Shown: positions 1-8,869 of the stretch, piece after piece
How positions within the stretch are numbered: position 1 is the stretch's first letter
Layout of the letters: every line of letters starts with the position of its first letter
Source: Maridesulfovibrio hydrothermalis AM13 = DSM 14728
GTDB lineage: Bacteria > Desulfobacterota > Desulfovibrionia > Desulfovibrionales > Desulfovibrionaceae
Direction: 5' to 3'
Assembly: GCF_000331025.1 (NCBI RefSeq)
Contig: NC_020055.1
Location: forward strand, 981,870-1,045,869
Length of the DNA: 64,000 bases
Position numbers and translations under genes: made by a program
Notes under the pieces: model-generated
What the model saw: only the letters and a program-made list of their open reading frames with translations
Told to the model about the DNA's origin: nothing
The model's database searches: none

Positions 1-400
1 GTCTAAGCCCCACAGATAAAATATTGCAGACCGAACCGCCCTGACCGACCATAATATCCTCTTCTCCACCCTGATTGAGGATCTGAAAATCAACCTGCAG
101 CTTCTTATCCCTGATGGATGCAACAGCCTTGACTTCACGGTCCTGACCTAAAATTTCTCTTATGGCATGGGTCAGGTTTGTTTCCAGTTCACTTAGAAGT
201 TCACCAAACAAGGCCGTAGACAGCTCTTCCAGCTTTGTAGCTGCAACAGGAGCAAGCTCTAAAAATTCATCCACAGCTTGATATTCCTGCCGCAAAGACA
301 GCCAGTCATCCACCCGCGACGATGCACGGGCCGCAATACGGTCAGCCCTGCGCTCCAAAGCTTCTAAAGCCGGAAGTTCTGATGTGCTGTTATGTTCCAT
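1..400 (-). CDS. Rad50/SbcC-like C-terminal ATPase half (partial)
   Basis: Only the first 133 codons lie in the window; the gene continues past the left edge. It starts at the ATG at 400-398 and overlaps the upstream coiled-coil gene by 11 bases. The N-terminal part is rich in Glu, Leu and Ala and looks helical. Near the edge it reads GQGGSVCNILSVGLR, which resembles the ABC signature motif that precedes Walker B in Rad50/SMC-type ATPases. With the Walker A protein and a metallophosphatase encoded upstream in the same operon, it is probably the C-terminal half of a split Rad50-like ATPase. The Walker B motif would lie outside the window, so the role is inferred. Confidence 0.6.
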   Translation of the reverse strand, partial: MEHNSTSELPALEALERRADRIAARASSRVDDWLSLRQEYQAVDEFLELAPVAATKLEELSTALFGELLSELETNLTHAIREILGQDREVKAVASIRDKKLQVDFQILNQGGEEDIMVGQGGSVCNILSVGLR

Positions 401-752
401 TATTCAGCTCCGCAGACTTGGCGGGGCGTGAGGTTTGATGCGCTTCAAGCTTTTGAAGGCCGTCCATGATGGAGGTGATATGCGCACGATACTCGGCAAC
501 AAGTCTGGCGTTGCCTGCCTTTTTTTCTTCGAGAAGTCGGCCAAGCTCCTGCGGGTCGGCTGTGCCGTACTGCGTTTTTGCCTGTGCTTCAAGCTCTGCA
601 AGCTGACGTCCGATATTGTCAAGGTTCTGTTCAGTGCGCACTTTATCTTCACGCAGCCGTTCGTACTGCTGTTTGAGCTGAGCCAGTTCACGCTCTAAGC
701 CGTTTCCGCCCTGATTCATGCTGTTTCCGTTTGCTCCATTACCCATTACCAT
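390..752 (-). CDS. small coiled-coil protein of the split Rad50/Mre11 operon
   Basis: A 120-residue protein starting at the ATG at 752-750; an earlier in-frame start at 809 would reach further into the upstream gene. A Gly/Asn-rich N-terminus (about residues 1-18) is followed by a long amphipathic heptad-like helix (about 18-60, LERELAQLKQQYERLREDK and onward), a break, and a second helix to about 108. It overlaps the end of the metallophosphatase gene by 14 bases and the start of the next gene by 11, so all are probably translated together. It may supply part of the coiled-coil arm or a linker between ATPase halves. No family was recognised and the function is inferred from context only. Confidence 0.6.
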   Translation of the reverse strand: MVMGNGANGNSMNQGGNGLERELAQLKQQYERLREDKVRTEQNLDNIGRQLAELEAQAKTQYGTADPQELGRLLEEKKAGNARLVAEYRAHITSIMDGLQKLEAHQTSRPAKSAELNNGT

Positions 753-1695
753 CGGTAACCTCCGTATATAAATCCCAGATGAGTTTGCTTTCCGGTTCAT
801 CCGGATCAATATTTTCTTCCAGAAATTGTTTCAGCCCTGCGCCTTCATGAGTGCGTTTCCATGCAAGGCGTTCTAAACCCAGCAAAAATTTTGACTCAGC
901 AGCCTCGGCATCTTCCAGTTCAAGCGGAAAGTCCTGATCCGGAAAAACATCATAAAAATCACGGTGCGGTATGTCCCATTTTTCAAGATCTTTACAATCA
1001 GGAGTCCAGATTGCTCCTTGCGGACTGCGCTCAAAAGACCTTTGCGAAAAGACCATACGACTGATGTTTCCCGGATTGGCCCATGTTGTCATACCCTCAG
1101 TTACGGTCGATCGCGGCCCGTGAATATGTCCGTTGATAATCCAGTCAATTCCCGGTTTTTCCTTAATCGTATGCTGCTGTTTTTTGCAGTCAGGGAATGA
1201 AATATTATGATGAGTCAGCCATACTACTTTTATATACTGACCATCATCACGCTCAAATTTCCCGGGAATTGGAAACCCGTCAGGGGAAGCGGCGACAAGC
1301 ACCAGCCCCTGCGGAGTTTGCAGTTCAAAGGCCGGTCCGCCTTCACTCAACAGGCCGATTACTCCGGCAGCTTCAAGCACAGCCAGAGATACGTCAGAGG
1401 TAAAACGAGCCTGATATTTATCGTGATTACCTACCAGAACAAAAGGCTTATACCGGCCGAAAAGAGCAATCATATCCACCAGCAGGCTGTTTCCGTTATC
1501 ACGAGGCCAGTGAAACAGATCGCCGAGAATGACCGGAACCAGATCAAGCTTTACAGAATGCGCAAAGCAGGCTTCCAGCTTATTCAGAACATCCCCAGCA
1601 TAATCACCAAGACGCTGTCCCGGCGGAGTCGAAGCTATATGGGGATCGCCGATAAGAAAAAGTCCGTTCCCCTCTACTTTATCAAGATAACTCAT
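739..1695 (-). CDS. Mre11/SbcD-like metallophosphoesterase
   Basis: A 318-residue calcineurin-type phosphoesterase. Metal-binding motifs occur in the expected order: GDPH at 16-19, GDLFH at 58-62, GNHD at 89-92, THHN at 161-164 and GHIH at 189-192. This is the arrangement of Mre11/SbcD nucleases, which use two metal ions to cut DNA in complex with a Rad50/SbcC ATPase. The C-terminal 100 residues are acidic and unassigned. The chosen start (MSYLDKVEG) overlaps the end of the upstream ATPase gene by 14 bases; longer in-frame starts lie deep inside that gene. The operon position between two ATPase fragments supports a nuclease role, although substrate specificity cannot be read from sequence. 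Confidence 0.8.
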   Translation of the reverse strand: MSYLDKVEGNGLFLIGDPHIASTPPGQRLGDYAGDVLNKLEACFAHSVKLDLVPVILGDLFHWPRDNGNSLLVDMIALFGRYKPFVLVGNHDKYQARFTSDVSLAVLEAAGVIGLLSEGGPAFELQTPQGLVLVAASPDGFPIPGKFERDDGQYIKVVWLTHHNISFPDCKKQQHTIKEKPGIDWIINGHIHGPRSTVTEGMTTWANPGNISRMVFSQRSFERSPQGAIWTPDCKDLEKWDIPHRDFYDVFPDQDFPLELEDAEAAESKFLLGLERLAWKRTHEGAGLKQFLEENIDPDEPESKLIWDLYTEVTDGNG

Positions 1696-3025
1696 AAGCA
1701 GCCTCCCCGAGCAACTTATCCGCTTCAAGATCACCGCCGCACAGGGGGCAGTTGCCGATCTCGGCAAGCCGCTGCCCGATACGTTTTTTAAGCCGTTCAC
1801 TTGCCAAATCAAGATCGGCAAGACGCTTACGCATCTCATCCTGTGAAAGTTTCAGGGACGAAATATTATTTACAACCTGCATCAGCTGTGAATCTTCAAA
1901 AAGCTCAGGCGGAGAGGCAAGCGGAGCCAGCAGCGTTGCCCTTTTAGAAATATTATCCCTGAGAAAACGATTGCGGGACACATTGCTGATGGTTGCAGAC
2001 AGGGTTGCCACATCTTCCAGTTCAGGCGGCGAGCACAAGGGTGACAGCAGATTCAGCCGGTTGTCCTGAAACAAATCTGCCGCAGAGAGTTGCTTTTGAC
2101 GTGCAATATCAGCTTCTAACCGCTGTACCGGATACAACTCCGGCTGCGGCTTTAGTCCCTCCAAAGAGGCTGCCCTGCTCTTCAAACTTTCGCCCTTTTG
2201 ACGCAAACTCTGCATACGGCTCACGGCAACTTCAAGCGGAGCGGTTGGAAAAAGTTCAGGTCCGGGTTGTAAAACTGCCAGTTCCTTTTCCCGTGCGGAA
2301 AGGTTTGAATAAGTATTTTCAAGCTCCCCCTTACGCCGCAAAAAGGTTTCGATAGCGGGAATCTCATCAGCAAGTTTATCTGCCTGCCCTTTCAGTTCAC
2401 GAGCCGATTCAAGCTCCAGATTTACAAGCGGTAAATCCTGTAGACCGTCCAATTCATCTGATATTTGAGCCATTTTCTGCTGCTGAAATTTCTTATCCCG
2501 TTTAGCGGTACGGACACGCCCCTTCAGCTCGGTCTGCATCGCCAGCAGGTGTGAACCTTCGGAAGATGAAGCAAAAAACTGCGCCGCAACCGACGCTGGC
2601 TGATCAAGCAGAAAAATAGGATTGCGCTGATTACCGATATGAACATCCAGCGATTTATCCCCCTCAAGAGGGACATGGTTGAGACGCAAAATATTAAGAA
2701 TATCCTCTGGCGGCTTACGCCCGAACTTGGCATAAACTTCCGCCTCTTCTGCCCCGGGCTTAAAAACTTCATACCAGGCCGTGGCTTTTTTACGAACCCA
2801 GACCACGCGAGTACCGTCATCCATCTCCAGTTCAACTCGCGCAACTTTAGCCCCGTGGCGAATAAAATGTTTGGGCAGGGGATTCGTTGCAATACAACGC
2901 AATGCCTCAACAACAGAAGATTTTCCACTGTTATTAGGGCCGGTAAGGACGGTCATGCCCGCGCCAAGTTCAATCTCGGTCTCAGCGTGGGCAAGAAAAT
3001 TTTTGAGTGTAATTTTTTTGATCAT
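1682..3025 (-). CDS. Rad50/SbcC-like N-terminal ATPase half with zinc-hook-like end
   Basis: A 447-residue protein. Residues 1-45 carry the N-terminal strand and Walker A motif of Rad50/RecF/SMC-type ATPases (GPNNSGKSS, 29-37). A helical arm follows. Residues 254-409 are four tandem 39-residue repeats, each opening with xxPEL at 254, 293, 332 and 371. The chain ends soon after CPLC (426-429), which looks like one half of a Rad50 zinc hook. No signature motif or Walker B is present; complete SbcC proteins are about 1000 residues and contain both ATPase halves. This is therefore a split form, first in a minus-strand operon with a Mre11-like nuclease, a coiled-coil protein and a probable C-terminal half. 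Confidence 0.75.
   Translation of the reverse strand: MIKKITLKNFLAHAETEIELGAGMTVLTGPNNSGKSSVVEALRCIATNPLPKHFIRHGAKVARVELEMDDGTRVVWVRKKATAWYEVFKPGAEEAEVYAKFGRKPPEDILNILRLNHVPLEGDKSLDVHIGNQRNPIFLLDQPASVAAQFFASSSEGSHLLAMQTELKGRVRTAKRDKKFQQQKMAQISDELDGLQDLPLVNLELESARELKGQADKLADEIPAIETFLRRKGELENTYSNLSAREKELAVLQPGPELFPTAPLEVAVSRMQSLRQKGESLKSRAASLEGLKPQPELYPVQRLEADIARQKQLSAADLFQDNRLNLLSPLCSPPELEDVATLSATISNVSRNRFLRDNISKRATLLAPLASPPELFEDSQLMQVVNNISSLKLSQDEMRKRLADLDLASERLKKRIGQRLAEIGNCPLCGGDLEADKLLGEAAYELS
1799..2266 (-). repeat. four tandem 39-residue coding repeats in the Rad50-like arm
   Basis: Residues 254-409 of the ATPase half divide into units starting PGPEL, PQPEL, SPPEL and SPPEL, spaced exactly 39 residues apart. 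After the PEL core each unit has a Leu near position 11, hydrophobic positions through a helix, and usually a Leu-rich end (SLEGLK, NLLSPL, TLLAPL). The fourth unit blends into the helix leading to CPLC. The DNA is diverged between units, so these are old protein repeats rather than recent duplications. Confidence 0.75.
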
Positions 3026-3219: not shown

Positions 3220-3945
3220 CTACTTCGCAATAAATGAACAATATTCAACAGAATCAACAGCTACATCACCACTTTCATCAAAAAGAATAACCGGAGGTTC
3301 AAGCACCAGCCCCGGTTTACCGTTTTTCACGGCTTCCACCAGAACGACTTTGGCAGGGGCATTAATACGCCCGTGAACAAGTTTCATGCGTTTCGGTTCA
3401 AGTTTATGTGCGATTAAAGAGTTGACCAGTCCGGCGAGCCTTTCCGCAAGAAATACAAAACATACTCTGCCCCGATTACGAACCATACGGGCAGCGGTTG
3501 CAGAAAACGCATTCAGATCCGCTTCCACTTCGAAACGGGCTTTATTTTTTTCCATGTCAGGACAGGCACAACCTCGACCTTCTGTTCTATATGGAGGATT
3601 AGATACAACCAGATCATAACTTTCGGCTGGAGCAAAATCAGGCGTGCAGACGTCACCCTGCAAAATTTTTATTTGATCAGCAAAACCAAGCTTGGCAACG
3701 TTATTTTCCGCTGCGGCGACCATCTCAGGATTTAGATCTATTCCGGTGATGCTGAGAGCCTTCCCTTTATTGCGCAACATGATGCCAAGCGGAATAACGC
3801 CGCTTCCGGTGCCGAGATCAAGAATTCTTCCTTTCGACGGCACTGACACAAAACTGCTGATCAGCAAGGAGTCAGTAGAAAAACGAAATCCCGTCTCCGG
3901 CTGCTCAAGGCCACGCGGAAAATATTTTCGTGCTTCTCCGTACAT
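3220..3945 (-). CDS. tRNA1(Val) A37 N6-methyltransferase-like protein
   Basis: A 241-residue class I SAM-dependent methyltransferase. It has the SAM-binding DLGTGSG (43-49), an acidic loop ending GID (68-70) and the N6-adenine/N5-glutamine methylase motif NPPY (116-119). The order, and the N-terminal phrase on a fixed set of bases (FRFSTDSLLISSF), match the YfiC/TrmN6 group that methylates A37 of tRNA. The start is the ATG at 3945-3943 because GGAGAG lies eight bases upstream; a TTG start at 3972 lacks this. It is separated by about 195 bases from the ATPase operon and by about 60 from murJ. The exact RNA target is inferred from the family. Confidence 0.75.
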   Translation of the reverse strand: MYGEARKYFPRGLEQPETGFRFSTDSLLISSFVSVPSKGRILDLGTGSGVIPLGIMLRNKGKALSITGIDLNPEMVAAAENNVAKLGFADQIKILQGDVCTPDFAPAESYDLVVSNPPYRTEGRGCACPDMEKNKARFEVEADLNAFSATAARMVRNRGRVCFVFLAERLAGLVNSLIAHKLEPKRMKLVHGRINAPAKVVLVEAVKNGKPGLVLEPPVILFDESGDVAVDSVEYCSFIAK

Positions 3946-4007
3946 AAAACAATCTCTCCGAATACTCTCCAAGTACCCTGCGGGGTCCAGAGAACTTTTG
4001 TATCAAA

Positions 4008-5531
4008 CTAACCCTTTCCACGCCGCAAAGCACCCATCAACATGCGGGCATCGTCTGACTTCAGCACAAGTGATCCTGCGGCGTAAATTACTATCCAGAC
4101 CGGAATAAGGACAAACCAGAGTATATCATACGCAGATGTGTACCATGCTCCCGCCCCGATCAGCGCGCTCAAAAAAAGACTCTTAAAAACACTTAGACAT
4201 GGCAGCGGTGAAACCTTTGTCCTGAACCACACAATGGTTGCAAGCAGCAGACAATTGAGCATAGATGAGATTGAAACCGCCAATGCCAGCCCCACATGGG
4301 CAATATGCTGCATCAAAAAATATCCAGCACCAACATTCACAATCAAGCACAAGATAGCAACTTTGACCGGAGTTTTGGTGTCTTCCTGTGCATAAAAAGC
4401 TGAAACCAAAGGACGGGACATGGCAATAAACGGCAGACCGACTCCGTAAGCCATCAAAGCCTGAGCTGTTGCCGTTACGGCTCCTGCATCAAAAGCACCG
4501 CGCTCAAAAAGCAATTCAATTAAGGGATGCGCAAGAGAAATCAACCCCGCCATTGCCGGAAGGCTGATAAAAAGAGTCAGTCCCACAGTCTGCTTAAGCG
4601 TATCGGCAAATTCACGCTGCTTACCTTCGACCCACAAAGCTGACAGACTCGGCAGGGCCGCCGTTCCGACTGCAATACCGAAAATACCGAGCGGAAACTG
4701 CACCAGTCGATCAGAATAATATAGATATGAAACACTGCCTACAGGTAGAAAAGAAGCCAGTAAAGTTCCCAGTGCCACATTGATCTGATAAACCGCCGCG
4801 CCTAATACGGTAGGCAGCATCAGGCTGCCCATCCGCTTAACTCCCGGATTATCAAGACTGTGCCTGCCGCGCCAGTTAAGCCCCAGCCGTTTAAGGTAAG
4901 GCTGCTGCAACATCCATTGCAGAACCCCGCCGATAAGCACACCCCAGGCCATAAACAGAGCCACACTGTTTCCAGTGAAATAACCGACCAGTGCCGAACC
5001 GATCAAAGCCACATTCAATGCACATGGAGCCAGTGCTGGAGCCAGAAAATGCCCCATACTATTCAAAATCCCCATGCAAAGCGCAACACCGCAAATAAAA
5101 ATTACATATGGAAAACAGAGTCTTACCAGCTCAACTGTAAGAGACATCAGTTCCGGATTGCGGTCAAATCCCGGTGCAATCATCAGCACCAGCGGCTTTG
5201 CAAAAACAACCGCCAGCAAAGTAATTCCGCCCAGCACAATAAGCAGCCAGACCAATGCCGAACGAGCCATTTCAAAGGCAGCTTCTTCGCCCTGTTCTCT
5301 GCGAACACGGCTGAAAACCGGAACAAAGGCCATCGTGAGCGAACCTTCGCCAAACAGTCGTCTAAGCAGATTAGGTATGCGAAATGCCACAAAAAAAGCG
5401 TCCGCAGGCATCCCCGCCCCAAGTGCAAACGCAACAATAAGATCCCTGACAAAGCCAAGGATTCTGGAAAGCAATGTTGCTCCGGCAACAACCGAGGCAT
5501 TGCGGACTATCTTACCGGTTTCAGCAGTCAT
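4008..5531 (-). CDS. murJ: lipid II flippase MurJ
   Basis: A 507-residue polytopic membrane protein of the MviN/MurJ family, which moves lipid II across the inner membrane for peptidoglycan synthesis. The N-terminus has the family block LSRILGFVRDLIVA and then FRIPNLLRRLFGEGS near residues 48-62, followed by about 14 hydrophobic segments. The length is typical. It lies 21 bases downstream of mutM on the same strand, so the two may be co-transcribed. Nothing appears truncated. Confidence 0.93.
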   Translation of the reverse strand: MTAETGKIVRNASVVAGATLLSRILGFVRDLIVAFALGAGMPADAFFVAFRIPNLLRRLFGEGSLTMAFVPVFSRVRREQGEEAAFEMARSALVWLLIVLGGITLLAVVFAKPLVLMIAPGFDRNPELMSLTVELVRLCFPYVIFICGVALCMGILNSMGHFLAPALAPCALNVALIGSALVGYFTGNSVALFMAWGVLIGGVLQWMLQQPYLKRLGLNWRGRHSLDNPGVKRMGSLMLPTVLGAAVYQINVALGTLLASFLPVGSVSYLYYSDRLVQFPLGIFGIAVGTAALPSLSALWVEGKQREFADTLKQTVGLTLFISLPAMAGLISLAHPLIELLFERGAFDAGAVTATAQALMAYGVGLPFIAMSRPLVSAFYAQEDTKTPVKVAILCLIVNVGAGYFLMQHIAHVGLALAVSISSMLNCLLLATIVWFRTKVSPLPCLSVFKSLFLSALIGAGAWYTSAYDILWFVLIPVWIVIYAAGSLVLKSDDARMLMGALRRGKG

Positions 5532-5552
5532 ATGAAAAATTGAAATTACAGA

Positions 5553-6377
5553 TTAGTCTTCCAGCTTCTGGCATTTACTGCAAAAAGTTGTGCTTCGTCC
5601 GGCGACAGTTGCGCCCTCAAAAATATGGCCGCAATCAGGGCAGGGTTCGCCTTTTTTCCCGTATACCTTGAAACTGTTCTGAAATCCGCCTGCATCACCT
5701 CCTGCATCAACGTAATCACGAATGGAGCTTCCGTTTTCGCTGATGGCCTGCTTAAGCACAGACTGCACTTCGCTGAAAAGTTTTTCAAGAGAATCTTTAG
5801 AAAGATCGGATGCTTTGGCTTTAGGGTGAATTCCGGAACGGAATAAAGATTCGTCAGCGTAGATGTTGCCGACTCCGGCTACCACTGACTGATTTAAAAG
5901 CAGCCCTTTGATCTGGGCTTTACGTCCTTCGATGCGTTCAGCCAGAGCTGCGGCGGTTGTTTCAAGAGGCTCGGGACCGAGGTTGCGGTAGAAATCCCAG
6001 TCTTGCAGTTCTTCATTGTTAAGAGCACGCACTTCACCGAACTTGCGGGTATCATGAAATTCAATTGATCCGCCATCAGCCAGACCGAAAACAAGGCGGG
6101 TATGAGTATCCGGGCTGGTTGCTCCTTCATGAGCAAGCACCCTTCCAGTCATTTTCAGATGAAAGGTAATATGCAGATCCTCCCCCAGATCCATTATAAG
6201 CAGCTTTGCACGTCTGTGAACACGGGTAATCTCCTCTCCGGCTACTCTGGACGAAAAAAGATACCACGGCATTTTTACAGAGCTGTGATTGAGTATTTTA
6301 ACGGATTCAATGGTTTTTCCTACCAATGCTTCGGATAAACCTCTGGAAATAACTTCTACTTCTGGTAATTCTGGCAT
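5553..6377 (-). CDS. mutM: formamidopyrimidine-DNA glycosylase MutM
   Basis: A 274-residue Fpg/MutM glycosylase that removes oxidised purines such as 8-oxoguanine and nicks the abasic site. It begins MPELPEVE, where Pro2 is the Schiff-base nucleophile and Glu3 is catalytic. Lys58 falls in [16 protein letters not shown] is intact, and the C-terminal zinc finger has Cys246, Cys249, Cys266 and Cys269 with Arg261 between. All key residues are present and the length is standard. It lies between the ChaN-type lipoprotein gene and murJ. Confidence 0.95.
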
Positions 6378-6405: not shown

Positions 6406-7590
6406 TTATTTTTCTTTTTTCATACGCTGAAGCAGCCCGATATCAAGATCAAAAACTTCGCCCCTTCTGTCCATAGTAAAAATTAAGGGGCTGTTCTCTT
6501 TGTGGGCCTTGGCTCCGGCCATGTGCATAGCAGACAAACTTGTAACGGGGATGCCTTGCGCTTTGACTATAATATCTCCGGGACGAATTCCCTTTTGATA
6601 GGCTTTACGGTCACGTTTAACAGCAGTTATCACCGCACGGCCCAGACGCATTTCAACGGTCATGCCCATTCTGCTCTCATAAGATGGCGGACAGTAGAAA
6701 AATGAATCAGCGGCTGAAGGGTAAAATTTATCCCCACGCCAAGGCATGATGATTGTAACTCCGGCTTGCGGATCTAGCACTTTAAGCCGGCGGGCAATGC
6801 CCCAGCCGTGCTCGACATGTCCACCGCCGGCAAGAATGATTACCGGATGACCGGAGCTTTTACGTAAATTCACAGCTTTCTCCGCCATGGCTGTATCCCA
6901 GAGGGACTGTACCAGAAAAAAGCGTTCAACCTGTACGGGGTCGGCCGTATCACGGTTTGTATGCATGGCGAGGACTTCTTTAAGCCCTTCCTCCTGTTCG
7001 GGAGCGGGAGGGATAACTTTTTCAGGCAGCATAGCCCTATCCTCAGCGGACAACCCTTCCAAGCCTTTGTCGCGCACCTCTTTGGTGAGCCTGAAAGGAA
7101 AATTAAGTCCGGCAACAGTAAGCCGGCGGGCAGCAGCAAGTTCAAAAACAGGCCGGAACATATTGAAATCATAACGCCAGCCGTTTTCCCAGTCGAGTTC
7201 TCCGGGCAGATCATCAGTGCTGAGCTGTCCAAGATTGAATCGATTGAGGATGTCCTGTTTATCCGCTGTGACCATTTCAAGACCGATGGCAACTTTATTC
7301 CGGCCGCGGGTCAAGCCTTCAATAATTTCAAACTGAACCTTATGATCACAGACGCTGGTATGTCCCTCTCCGATAAGTACATAATCAGCCTTGGCGGCTT
7401 CGCTCATAAGTTTGTCAAATGGCAGCCTGTCGCCTACCGGATCAAGGAACTCCCCGGGACAGGGCAGGAAAGATACAGCCATTTCAGATGAAATATTCTT
7501 TTTCACACACCCTGCTCCGGCCATAAGAAAAAAAAGTGCGCAAAGGACCAAAAGGCCCTTTGCGCAAATATTGTTATTTTTCTGCACCAT
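6406..7590 (-). CDS. ChaN-family haem/iron-type lipoprotein with C-terminal PDZ domain
   Basis: A 394-residue protein with an N-terminal hydrophobic signal ending MAGAGC (Cys28), an imperfect lipobox. The middle part matches the ChaN/DUF399 family: [13 protein letters not shown] near 71-83, AIGLEM, and [11 protein letters not shown] further on. The last 90 residues form a PDZ-like domain ([19 protein letters not shown]). ChaN of Campylobacter binds haem and is iron-regulated; transfer of that role here is inference. The ATG at 7590 is preferred to an upstream TTG at 7629 because it gives a clean signal peptide and lies 13 bases after the PaaK-like gene, suggesting one transcript. Confidence 0.75.
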
Positions 7591-7603
7591 GCAAGATACC
7601 GGG

Positions 7604-8869
7604 CTAATCCCAGATTCGCTTATCTTCAATGGGTCTGATCTGCGGAGGCAGTGAGCCGGGAGTCAAAACCTTGAGGATAGGACGCAGTTTGATCTTCTCA
7701 CGGAACATGTGCAGCAGCTCATCTTCACGCTTGAAGTTTGAAACCTCAATATTGAGGATCATTTCATCAATTCCACCGGGGTTGGTAACTTCAATCTGCC
7801 AGCGTTTAACTTCTTCGAAGTGAGCCATAACCTGCTCCACCTGATGAGGATAGACAAACATCCCCTTAATACGGGCAGTTGTATCTACGCGGCCGACAAT
7901 GTTGCCGAGGCGGGGTGTAGAACGTCCGCAAGGACAGGGAGAACGGTCAATGTAGCTCAGGTCGCCGGTAGCAAGTCTGATGAGCGGGTAGGTTTTGTTG
8001 AAGGCGGTGATAACAATCTCACCAACTTCGCCGTCCTTAAGAGGAATACCGGTATCAGGATGGCAGATTTCAACAAAAGCACGGTTGGTGATGTGCAGAC
8101 CGTTTTTATGGTAGCACTCATAACCGATACAACCTACGTCTGCGGTTCCGTAACCCTGACGCATGATCAGATCGAATTTTTTCTCAAGAGAAGAACGGAC
8201 TTTCTCAGAAAATTTTTCACCGGTAACAAATGCAACCTCAAGATAGAGGTCTTTGCGCAGGTTAAGACCGGCCTCTTCCGCTTTCTGGGCAAGATGCATA
8301 AGATAGCTGGGAGTGCCGACATAACCGGTAACTCTCAGTTTCTGCATGATTTCAAGCTGGCTGTTGGTAGAACCGGGGCCGGCGGGAATCACTGCACAAT
8401 TAAGATTGCGCAGGGGTTCTTCAAACATGAGTCCGGCAGGGGCAAGATGATAGTTGAAAGTGATCTGAGCAACATCGCCGGAACGGAATCCGGCTGCATA
8501 GAACCCTTCAGTCCATCCCCAGTAATCATCACTGCGGTCTTCAGGATCAAAAATCGGTCCGGGAGACAGAAAAATACGGCGCAGTTCGCCGAGATCTTTG
8601 GTGAGCAGTCCGCCGAGACGCGGTCCCATGGATTGAAGAAAGATAAGCTCTTTCTTCTTTAAAATAGGTATATGTTTAAGATCAGCAAGTTCTTTAAACT
8701 TATCAACCTGAAACTGAGCTCTGTCGAAGCGTTTTTTTACATCTTCAGAATAACGATAGGCATAGGTCAGAAGTTCTTTAAGCTGCAAGGCGCAATATTG
8801 GCGTCTTTCACCTTCATCAAGTACTTCACGACGGCTGAAGATGCCTTCGGTACGATCTTTACGAGTCAT
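7604..8869 (-). CDS. PaaK-like phenylacetate/aryl-CoA ligase
   Basis: A 421-residue adenylate-forming enzyme of the phenylacetate-CoA ligase family, which activates a carboxylic acid with ATP and joins it to CoA. The middle region has MRQGYGTADVGCIGYEC and the C-terminal domain has SPCPCGRSTPRLGNIVGRVD, typical of PaaK. The ATG at 8869 follows GGAGGAAACC at good spacing. No phenylacetate pathway genes are nearby. In anaerobes such stand-alone enzymes are often indole-acetate or aryl-acid CoA ligases, so the substrate is unknown. Confidence 0.8.
   Translation of the reverse strand: MTRKDRTEGIFSRREVLDEGERRQYCALQLKELLTYAYRYSEDVKKRFDRAQFQVDKFKELADLKHIPILKKKELIFLQSMGPRLGGLLTKDLGELRRIFLSPGPIFDPEDRSDDYWGWTEGFYAAGFRSGDVAQITFNYHLAPAGLMFEEPLRNLNCAVIPAGPGSTNSQLEIMQKLRVTGYVGTPSYLMHLAQKAEEAGLNLRKDLYLEVAFVTGEKFSEKVRSSLEKKFDLIMRQGYGTADVGCIGYECYHKNGLHITNRAFVEICHPDTGIPLKDGEVGEIVITAFNKTYPLIRLATGDLSYIDRSPCPCGRSTPRLGNIVGRVDTTARIKGMFVYPHQVEQVMAHFEEVKRWQIEVTNPGGIDEMILNIEVSNFKREDELLHMFREKIKLRPILKVLTPGSLPPQIRPIEDKRIWD

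Follow-up and report, generated by a model that had tools for sequence, protein, structure and literature searches.

The ATPase of the canonical SbcCD (Rad50-Mre11) complexes is a single chain, ordered N-lobe, coil, zinc hook, coil and C-lobe. The locus described here lies at the left end of a 64,000-nucleotide window (the whole stretch of DNA analysed, C2:981870-1045869 of the 3.71 Mb genome of Maridesulfovibrio hydrothermalis AM13 = DSM 14728) and does not follow that order: four overlapping genes, all on the minus strand, encode a Rad50 N-half, an Mre11-type nuclease, a small coiled-coil protein (CC) and a Rad50 C-half, and relatives in which the two halves are fused carry the C-lobe before the N-lobe. 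Very probably, the products form a complex of the Rad50-Mre11 (SbcCD) type, with an ATPase built from two polypeptides, and stand in for canonical SbcCD in this lineage. ABC (ATP-binding cassette) head motifs, the hook motif and an Mre11-fold nuclease in the same operon are shared with canonical SbcCD. The differences are that the ATPase halves are encoded by separate genes or circularly permuted, that the hook stands at the chain end instead of mid-chain, that the ATPase chains appear to lack a descending coiled-coil arm of matching length, that there is an extra conserved small subunit and, in the split form, an arm of 39-residue units, and that in this genome the system is matched by neither PF13558 nor TIGR00619.

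Other rearranged or shortened Rad50 proteins are known. Fusions of Mre11 to Rad50, of the Mimivirus R555 type, resemble the present system in their rearranged architecture and sporadic occurrence in plasmids and phages, but in the present system Mre11 has a gene of its own, and the protein that is split or permuted is Rad50; in two such fusions, those of Anaerostipes and Bacillus phage 0305phi8-36, one P-loop segment was not observed (PMC3175470). A7KV18, which that paper assigns to the latter phage, ranks first among the viral structural matches of our permuted protein. Lamassu LmuB and LmuC share with the present proteins a short Rad50-like ATPase, a zinc hook in many members and a small partner, but the LmuB ATPase is described as one protein, its Walker B glutamate is generally a glutamine, and the effectors are different (PMC10586767). 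The phage families matched by the two halves, PHROG 16465 and PHROG 15167, are listed as two separate families and not as a joint system. No description of a split or circularly permuted Rad50 was found in a search of open-licence full-text literature (titles, beginnings of abstracts and passages).

Composition of the four-gene locus

The N-half (1682..3025, 447 aa) consists of a Walker A N-lobe, an arm and a C-terminal zinc-hook-like motif. An earlier note on this DNA, made without database searches, had described it as a Walker A half with a coiled-coil arm ending at CPLC, and the family searches agree: AAA_23 is matched above its cut-off at 1.8e-12, several archaeal Rad50 models are matched as well, and Rad50 is the best match by sequence and by fold, with the chains of P. 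furiosus Rad50 at the top of a sequence search of the PDB. The Walker A, GPNNSGKS, occupies 2918..2941 (residues 29-36) and is evident in the sequence and in the AAA_23 match, the arm covers 1751..2428 (residues 200-425), and the CPLC motif lies at 1739..1750 (residues 426-429), followed by 18 residues to the C-terminus. Rad50_zn_hook matches residues 412-437 below its threshold. A CxxC motif, which is predicted to bind zinc, is present close to the C-terminus in all 35 N-halves from loci with the same four-gene order and in 11 of 11 plasmid-borne fusions. The N-half also matches PHROG 16465 (exonuclease) at 2.2e-27, and no ABC signature like that of the C-half was seen in its sequence.

The complementary motifs reside in the C-half (216 aa), of which the first 133 residues are encoded inside the window at 1..400; the gene continues for 251 bases beyond the left edge, to G000:C2:981619. 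The signature region, GQGGSVCNILS, lies at 14..46 (residues 119-129) and departs from the canonical LSGGE. The earlier note had proposed to look for a Walker B by extending this gene leftwards, and had held that its absence would speak against a split ATPase. The extended protein contains GQGGSVCNILSVGLR, the Walker B with its catalytic glutamate (FLVLDEQDCW) and the H-switch (VISHH), the latter two in the part outside the window, and no Walker A was seen in its sequence. The Walker B aspartate and glutamate, the H-switch histidine, and the G and N of the signature are invariant in the 22 C-lobes of alignment A2, and the glutamate is also kept in 47 of 47 fusion sequences. Family matches of the C-half are all weak (MADS ATPase in PADLOC, 1.1e-7; PHROG 15167, an ATPase, 8.2e-5).

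Between the two halves lie the genes for the nuclease and CC. The nuclease (739..1695, 318 aa from its ATG) was expected to be a full Mre11-type phosphoesterase and proved to be one: it matches Metallophos at 9.8e-8, the phosphoesterase motif residues are conserved among its relatives, and its AlphaFold2 (AF2) model, built from 57 sequences, reached a pLDDT (predicted local distance difference test) of 89 and a pTM (predicted TM-score) of 0.81. All 50 PDB matches listed by Foldseek for this model are Mre11 or Mre11 complexes, with E-values down to 6e-12, whereas no PDB entry was matched by sequence at E 0.1. Three C-terminal helices are predicted (residues 269-279, 286-295 and 301-314), in the region of Mre11 that would bind Rad50. 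CC (390..752, 120 aa from the ATG at 752, with alternative starts at TTG 809 and ATG 746) mostly keeps a turn resembling (Y/F)GT(S/A/T)D, with single members deviating in the letters around G63, the one position that never varies in an alignment of 26 CC proteins from the two architectures. CC is a conserved partner, and may be the third arm piece that the earlier note proposed. With the ATG starts used here, the genes overlap by 14 (N-half and nuclease), 14 (nuclease and CC) and 11 bases (CC and C-half), as had been noted.

Gene order, rotation and circular permutation

The split arrangement is not peculiar to this genome. The C-half (query P0004) has matches in 14 of the 198 genomes sampled from the phylum (9 strong), in 60 of 149 genomes of the family (55 strong, after five weak matches of 8e-5 to 9e-4 among those at E 1e-3 were set aside) and in 16 of 17 genomes of the genus. 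We compared 41 loci, namely the locus itself and 40 stretches, from its own genome and the phylum, that were fetched because they hold a C-half; in 35 of them the order N-half, nuclease, CC, C-half recurs unfused on one strand. The same order was present in 17 of 80 loci from named genomes, one locus (L062 = L166) being shared by both sets, so that 51 different bacterial loci have the split genes as open frames. The claim that the system is split over four overlapping genes thus stands, and the search for the same order in other genomes, which the earlier note had recommended, gave a clear result; its judgement that the order is unusual has to be revised, since this is a conserved arrangement that also has a cyclically rotated form with the halves fused C-lobe first.

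These data bear on the possibility that the genes are the pseudogene remains of a decayed or recently broken sbcC. Its sole support is that canonical SbcC is one chain; neither fragment has lost its catalytic motifs, an identical division into open frames recurs in the 51 bacterial loci and in a phage, and the fused relatives have their lobes the other way round, an arrangement that simple breakage could not produce. We regard this explanation as having next to no chance of being right.

The rotated form became apparent on plasmids, where a tblastn search with the C-half matched 21 records; 11 were read, and in all 11 the C-lobe and the N-lobe form one chain, C first, with the CxxC at its end. 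By the models used, nine of these loci have CC upstream and the nuclease downstream, while in one the CC and in another the nuclease went unmatched. In the named genomes, represented by the best 80 of 185 confirmed relatives, 58 loci show CC, fused C-N and nuclease in this order and 17 the unfused order, a ratio that is not a prevalence because the relatives were ranked against the fused query. Three more loci have the fused order but are cut by contig ends, so that both lobes share one chain in 61 of the 80; the last two hold nuclease, CC and C-half, and the C-half only. Of the 61 fusions, 58 have the CxxC close to the C-terminal end, and the other three are those cut by contig ends. By record titles, all fused loci belong to Pseudomonadota, with 35 of the 80 loci labelled Microvirga, and the unfused ones to Planctomycetota, Desulfobacterota, Sumerlaeia and Bacillota. 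Cyclic rotation turns the fused gene order into the unfused one and vice versa, and the fused chain, C-lobe then N-lobe, is a natural circular permutation. Among the carriers of the permuted form is Methylorubrum extorquens AM1 (L010). Long frames joining the nuclease and the N-half in some high-GC loci were considered as further fusions and are taken instead as open frames.

A tree was built from N-lobe, nuclease and C-lobe columns of 68 loci, which remained of 120 complete loci (out of 135 examined) after removal of near-duplicates. In this unrooted tree, 26 fused forms constitute one clade (ultrafast bootstrap 96), three split phages join it next (100) and the bacterial split forms lie outside. 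The simplest reading would be a single permutation, in which fission came first and fusion later.

The distances within the operon allow another view, namely that the halves work in separate complexes, with the C-half as an independent ABC-type regulator beside an SMC-like N-half and a phosphoesterase. In six of the 35 ordered loci, CC and the C-half are separated by 0.9-2.6 kb, and the C-half should therefore be seen as a free-standing gene; in the retrieved stretches of L070, L079, L083 and L086 it stands alone or away from the other parts. The natural one-chain fusions of both lobes, their complementary motifs and the co-location of the genes in 35 of the 41 loci speak against such a separation, which we consider highly improbable. 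Five loci (L074, L089, L090, L092 and L093) carry an extra gene between CC and the C-half, whose product, with EEFGWRG and HLPLNLRGYNF motifs, we take to be similar to the CPBP-family membrane proteases.

Phages also harbour the split form. Microcystis phage Mvi-JY20 (L175) has the complete order N-half, nuclease, CC and C-half (332, 319, 94 and 205 aa, all annotated as hypothetical), and its N-half carries CSQC close to the C-terminal end; the CC gene is matched weakly (1.5e-4 among 12 sequences, and not recovered at E 1e-3 in a large set). In Bacillus phage vB_BboS-125 the order is N-half, an AP2 protein, a small coiled-coil gene with no match to the CC model, C-half, another gene and a nuclease frame. 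This Mre11-like frame (L015:7612-8730), beside the split Rad50 genes, is unannotated in the public record. An uncultured 485-kb phage holds the N-half, nuclease and C-half apart from each other. In the phage collection, P0004 matched two records, P0001 four and P0002 one, and three further queries with phage proteins retrieved no additional phage. Scans of viral contigs with A1, P0004 and A2 matched 92, 3 and 7 stretches, none of which was confirmed, which is weak evidence given the few peptide patterns used. Gene 4 of the Magritte phage, presumably a clamp loader, was tried as an N-half and gave no N match; only the C-half of this phage stands. In BFVD, two pairs of viral proteins with neighbouring accessions, A0A516LLJ5/A0A516LLJ2 and A0A8S5ME05/A0A8S5MDN9 (the second pair from Siphoviridae sp. 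ctYh54), are matched by the model of the permuted protein and might represent additional halves of split Rad50 proteins.

Proposed assembly of the head, and the repeats of the arm

The natural fusions permit both lobes to be modelled in one chain. Alignment A5 holds 47 of the 61 fusions, and A7 the window nuclease with 56 of its 72 usable relatives. The AF2 model of the Arenibaculum fusion (630 aa, 47 sequences) has a mean pLDDT of 81.6, with most of the ATPase core above 90, and 14 PDB structures match its fold at E 1e-3 or better: 12 are Rad50 and two, at ranks 3 and 6, are SMC or Smc5-6 heads. Rad50 chains of both lobes are among them (1f2u_B and 1f2u_D with TMt 0.73 and 0.72, 1f2u_C with 0.61). 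Chain A of 1f2t and 1f2u is matched by the N-half and is thus the N-lobe, and therefore chains B and D represent the C-lobe. P. furiosus Rad50 was reportedly crystallised as separate N and C fragments. The fusion, in which both lobes are modelled with confidence and matched to Rad50, fits the proposal that the ATPase is put together from separate polypeptides; the separate chains would assemble likewise.

The arm of the split N-halves has an unusual regularity. Prolines recur at a lag of 39 residues 195 times, compared with 26.9 expected in shuffled sequences (33 of the 35 N-halves were long enough; the z of 35.6 is inflated, as the sequences are related). When the arms were anchored at PPxL, 47 units could be aligned, with hydrophobic residues at positions 4, 10, 13/14, 17, 20, 24, 27, 34 and 37; the proline anchors of these units were imposed, and the heptad-like hydrophobic stripe was not. 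In the 50 split proteins with both motifs found (L062 and L166 being one locus), the distances from Walker A to the hook fall into four clusters, 351-361 (9 proteins), 389-403 (19), 430-441 (9) and 467-480 (10), which account for 47 of them; the other three are phages. Since the distances cluster in this way, the arm varies in length by whole 39-residue units. In 58 fused arms, the proline lags of 40-50 are less regular, and the 39-residue unit is therefore shown for the split form only. As for a returning strand, the C-half has just ~60-70 residues before its lobe, and the arm of the fusion was modelled at low confidence. An up-down zigzag packing of the units was rejected, as length steps of a single unit would flip the hook end.

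We picture the N-half and the C-half as folding together into one ABC head. Two heads would sandwich ATP, with the Walker A of one opposed to the signature of the other, and a change in the state of the heads would allow the Mre11-type subunit to cut DNA. The arm of the N-half, presumably a series of helical units, would end in the Cys-x-x-Cys hook, where zinc might join the hooks of two arms so that DNA ends or sisters are tethered. The descending half of the coiled coil appears to be missing from both ATPase chains, and a hairpin of CC probably packs on the neck or the arm instead; we infer the place and role of CC, like the fold of the arm, from these considerations. On balance, we lean slightly towards a still broader picture: a distinct branch of Rad50-Mre11 that would have lost the return strand, whose ATPase was cut and once rejoined in permuted form through rotation of the operon, with a modular single-chain rod or solenoid as arm, made of 39-residue helical units that are gained or lost as whole blocks, a terminal zinc hook and CC bracing the neck, acting as a four-subunit replacement of SbcCD in several phyla.

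Relation to canonical SbcCD and probable cellular role

The earlier note had advised a check for a complete sbcC in the same genome. Neither the SbcC Walker B model (PF13558) nor the SbcD model (TIGR00619) has a match in the genome of M. hydrothermalis; in control genomes, the two models match in 12 of 14 and 13 of 14, with SbcD above its curated cut-off in 8. AAA_23 gave 15 matches in this genome, namely RecN, the N-half and 13 weaker ones (frames of 255-916 aa, not each examined). Across the 149 family genomes, sampled in two draws taken as one set, the split system occurs in 55, strong SbcC in 33 and both in one (Fisher p 6e-7); by genus, the figures are 18 and 11 of 44, with one shared (p 0.013). 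The SbcC count derives from 46 genomes with PF13558 matches minus 13 weak ones (9e-5 to 9e-4); seven of the 13 are split carriers, with matches in frames of 322-594 aa. Strong SbcC matches are absent from all nine strong split carriers of the phylum sample; one carrier in that sample, G073, has a weak PF13558 match (7.5e-4). The parts, their conservation and homology, the gene order with its rotation and C-to-N fusion, the arm repeat and the near-exclusion of SbcC within the family all come directly from the computation.

Upstream of the operon, window positions 3220-6377 encode a trmN-like methyltransferase (below the curated cut-off), MurJ and MutM, and homologues of these lie near the relatives' loci in 16, 10 and 5 of 60 stretches, respectively; many of these stretches end before such genes could be reached. 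Positions 6406-7629 encode a lipoprotein-like protein of 407 aa, which we take to resemble ChaN with a PDZ-like part at its C-terminus.

The near-exclusion of SbcC and the recurring neighbours are more in keeping with a repair operon that is inherited vertically than with a defence gene that moves between genomes. A system for defence against phages or plasmids, derived from Rad50-Mre11 and similar to Lamassu (LmuA-LmuC-LmuB) with CC as LmuC, has to be considered nonetheless: the top PADLOC match of the N-half is LmuB (2.6e-15, residues 2-437), Lamassu has its small middle component and hook, and the permuted form occurs on plasmids. However, the LmuA effector and one-protein LmuB of Lamassu have no counterpart in the present locus, with its two-gene ATPase, a nuclease unmatched in PADLOC at E 0.1 and a Walker B glutamate that is kept throughout, and presence in nearly the whole genus together with recurring neighbours is unlike patchy defence islands. 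A defence system is therefore improbable. Of the alternatives in the earlier note, a repair or a defence nuclease, the former is better supported, by the occurrence in the genus, the trmN-like neighbour and the near-exclusion with strong SbcC. A housekeeping replacement of SbcCD is most likely, and the role itself would be in repair.

Several observations weigh against a two-polypeptide ATPase that takes the place of SbcCD. The hook motif was not found in L159 and L170, and several split proteins have hooks without the proline. In six of the 41 loci, at least one part is missing from the retrieved stretch: two hold nuclease, CC and C-half without an N-half, three the C-half alone (one at a short contig end), and one has CC and the C-half far apart on opposite strands. 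The fusion model has a pTM of 0.60, and in its arm the pLDDT falls below 50 at residues 480-493 and 524-559. The Fisher test ignores phylogeny and depends on thresholds chosen by the analysts, at which 62 family genomes have neither system; in the only overlapping family genome, G329, the SbcC match lies in a frame of 214 aa. Finally, among 35 carriers tested elsewhere, a subset of the 80-locus genomes, eight also have a strong SbcC (7 of 21 fused and 1 of 14 split; 11 at E 1e-3, from which three weak ones were dropped), and the replacement of SbcCD is thus not universal. In L058 and L061, where nuclease, CC and C-half stand together, no N-half was found within the 12 kb retrieved; it may lie elsewhere in those genomes.

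How hook and head communicate along the Rad50 arm is a long-standing question. The loci described here offer natural experiments on it, in which the arm is detached from one half of the head, the return strand appears to be shortened or removed, the length changes in countable blocks and, in another lineage, the head is rejoined in reverse order. Such experiments are hard to make by hand, and the proteins are small (120-450 aa). The findings also suggest that SbcCD may be present in another form in some of the genomes where standard models report none.

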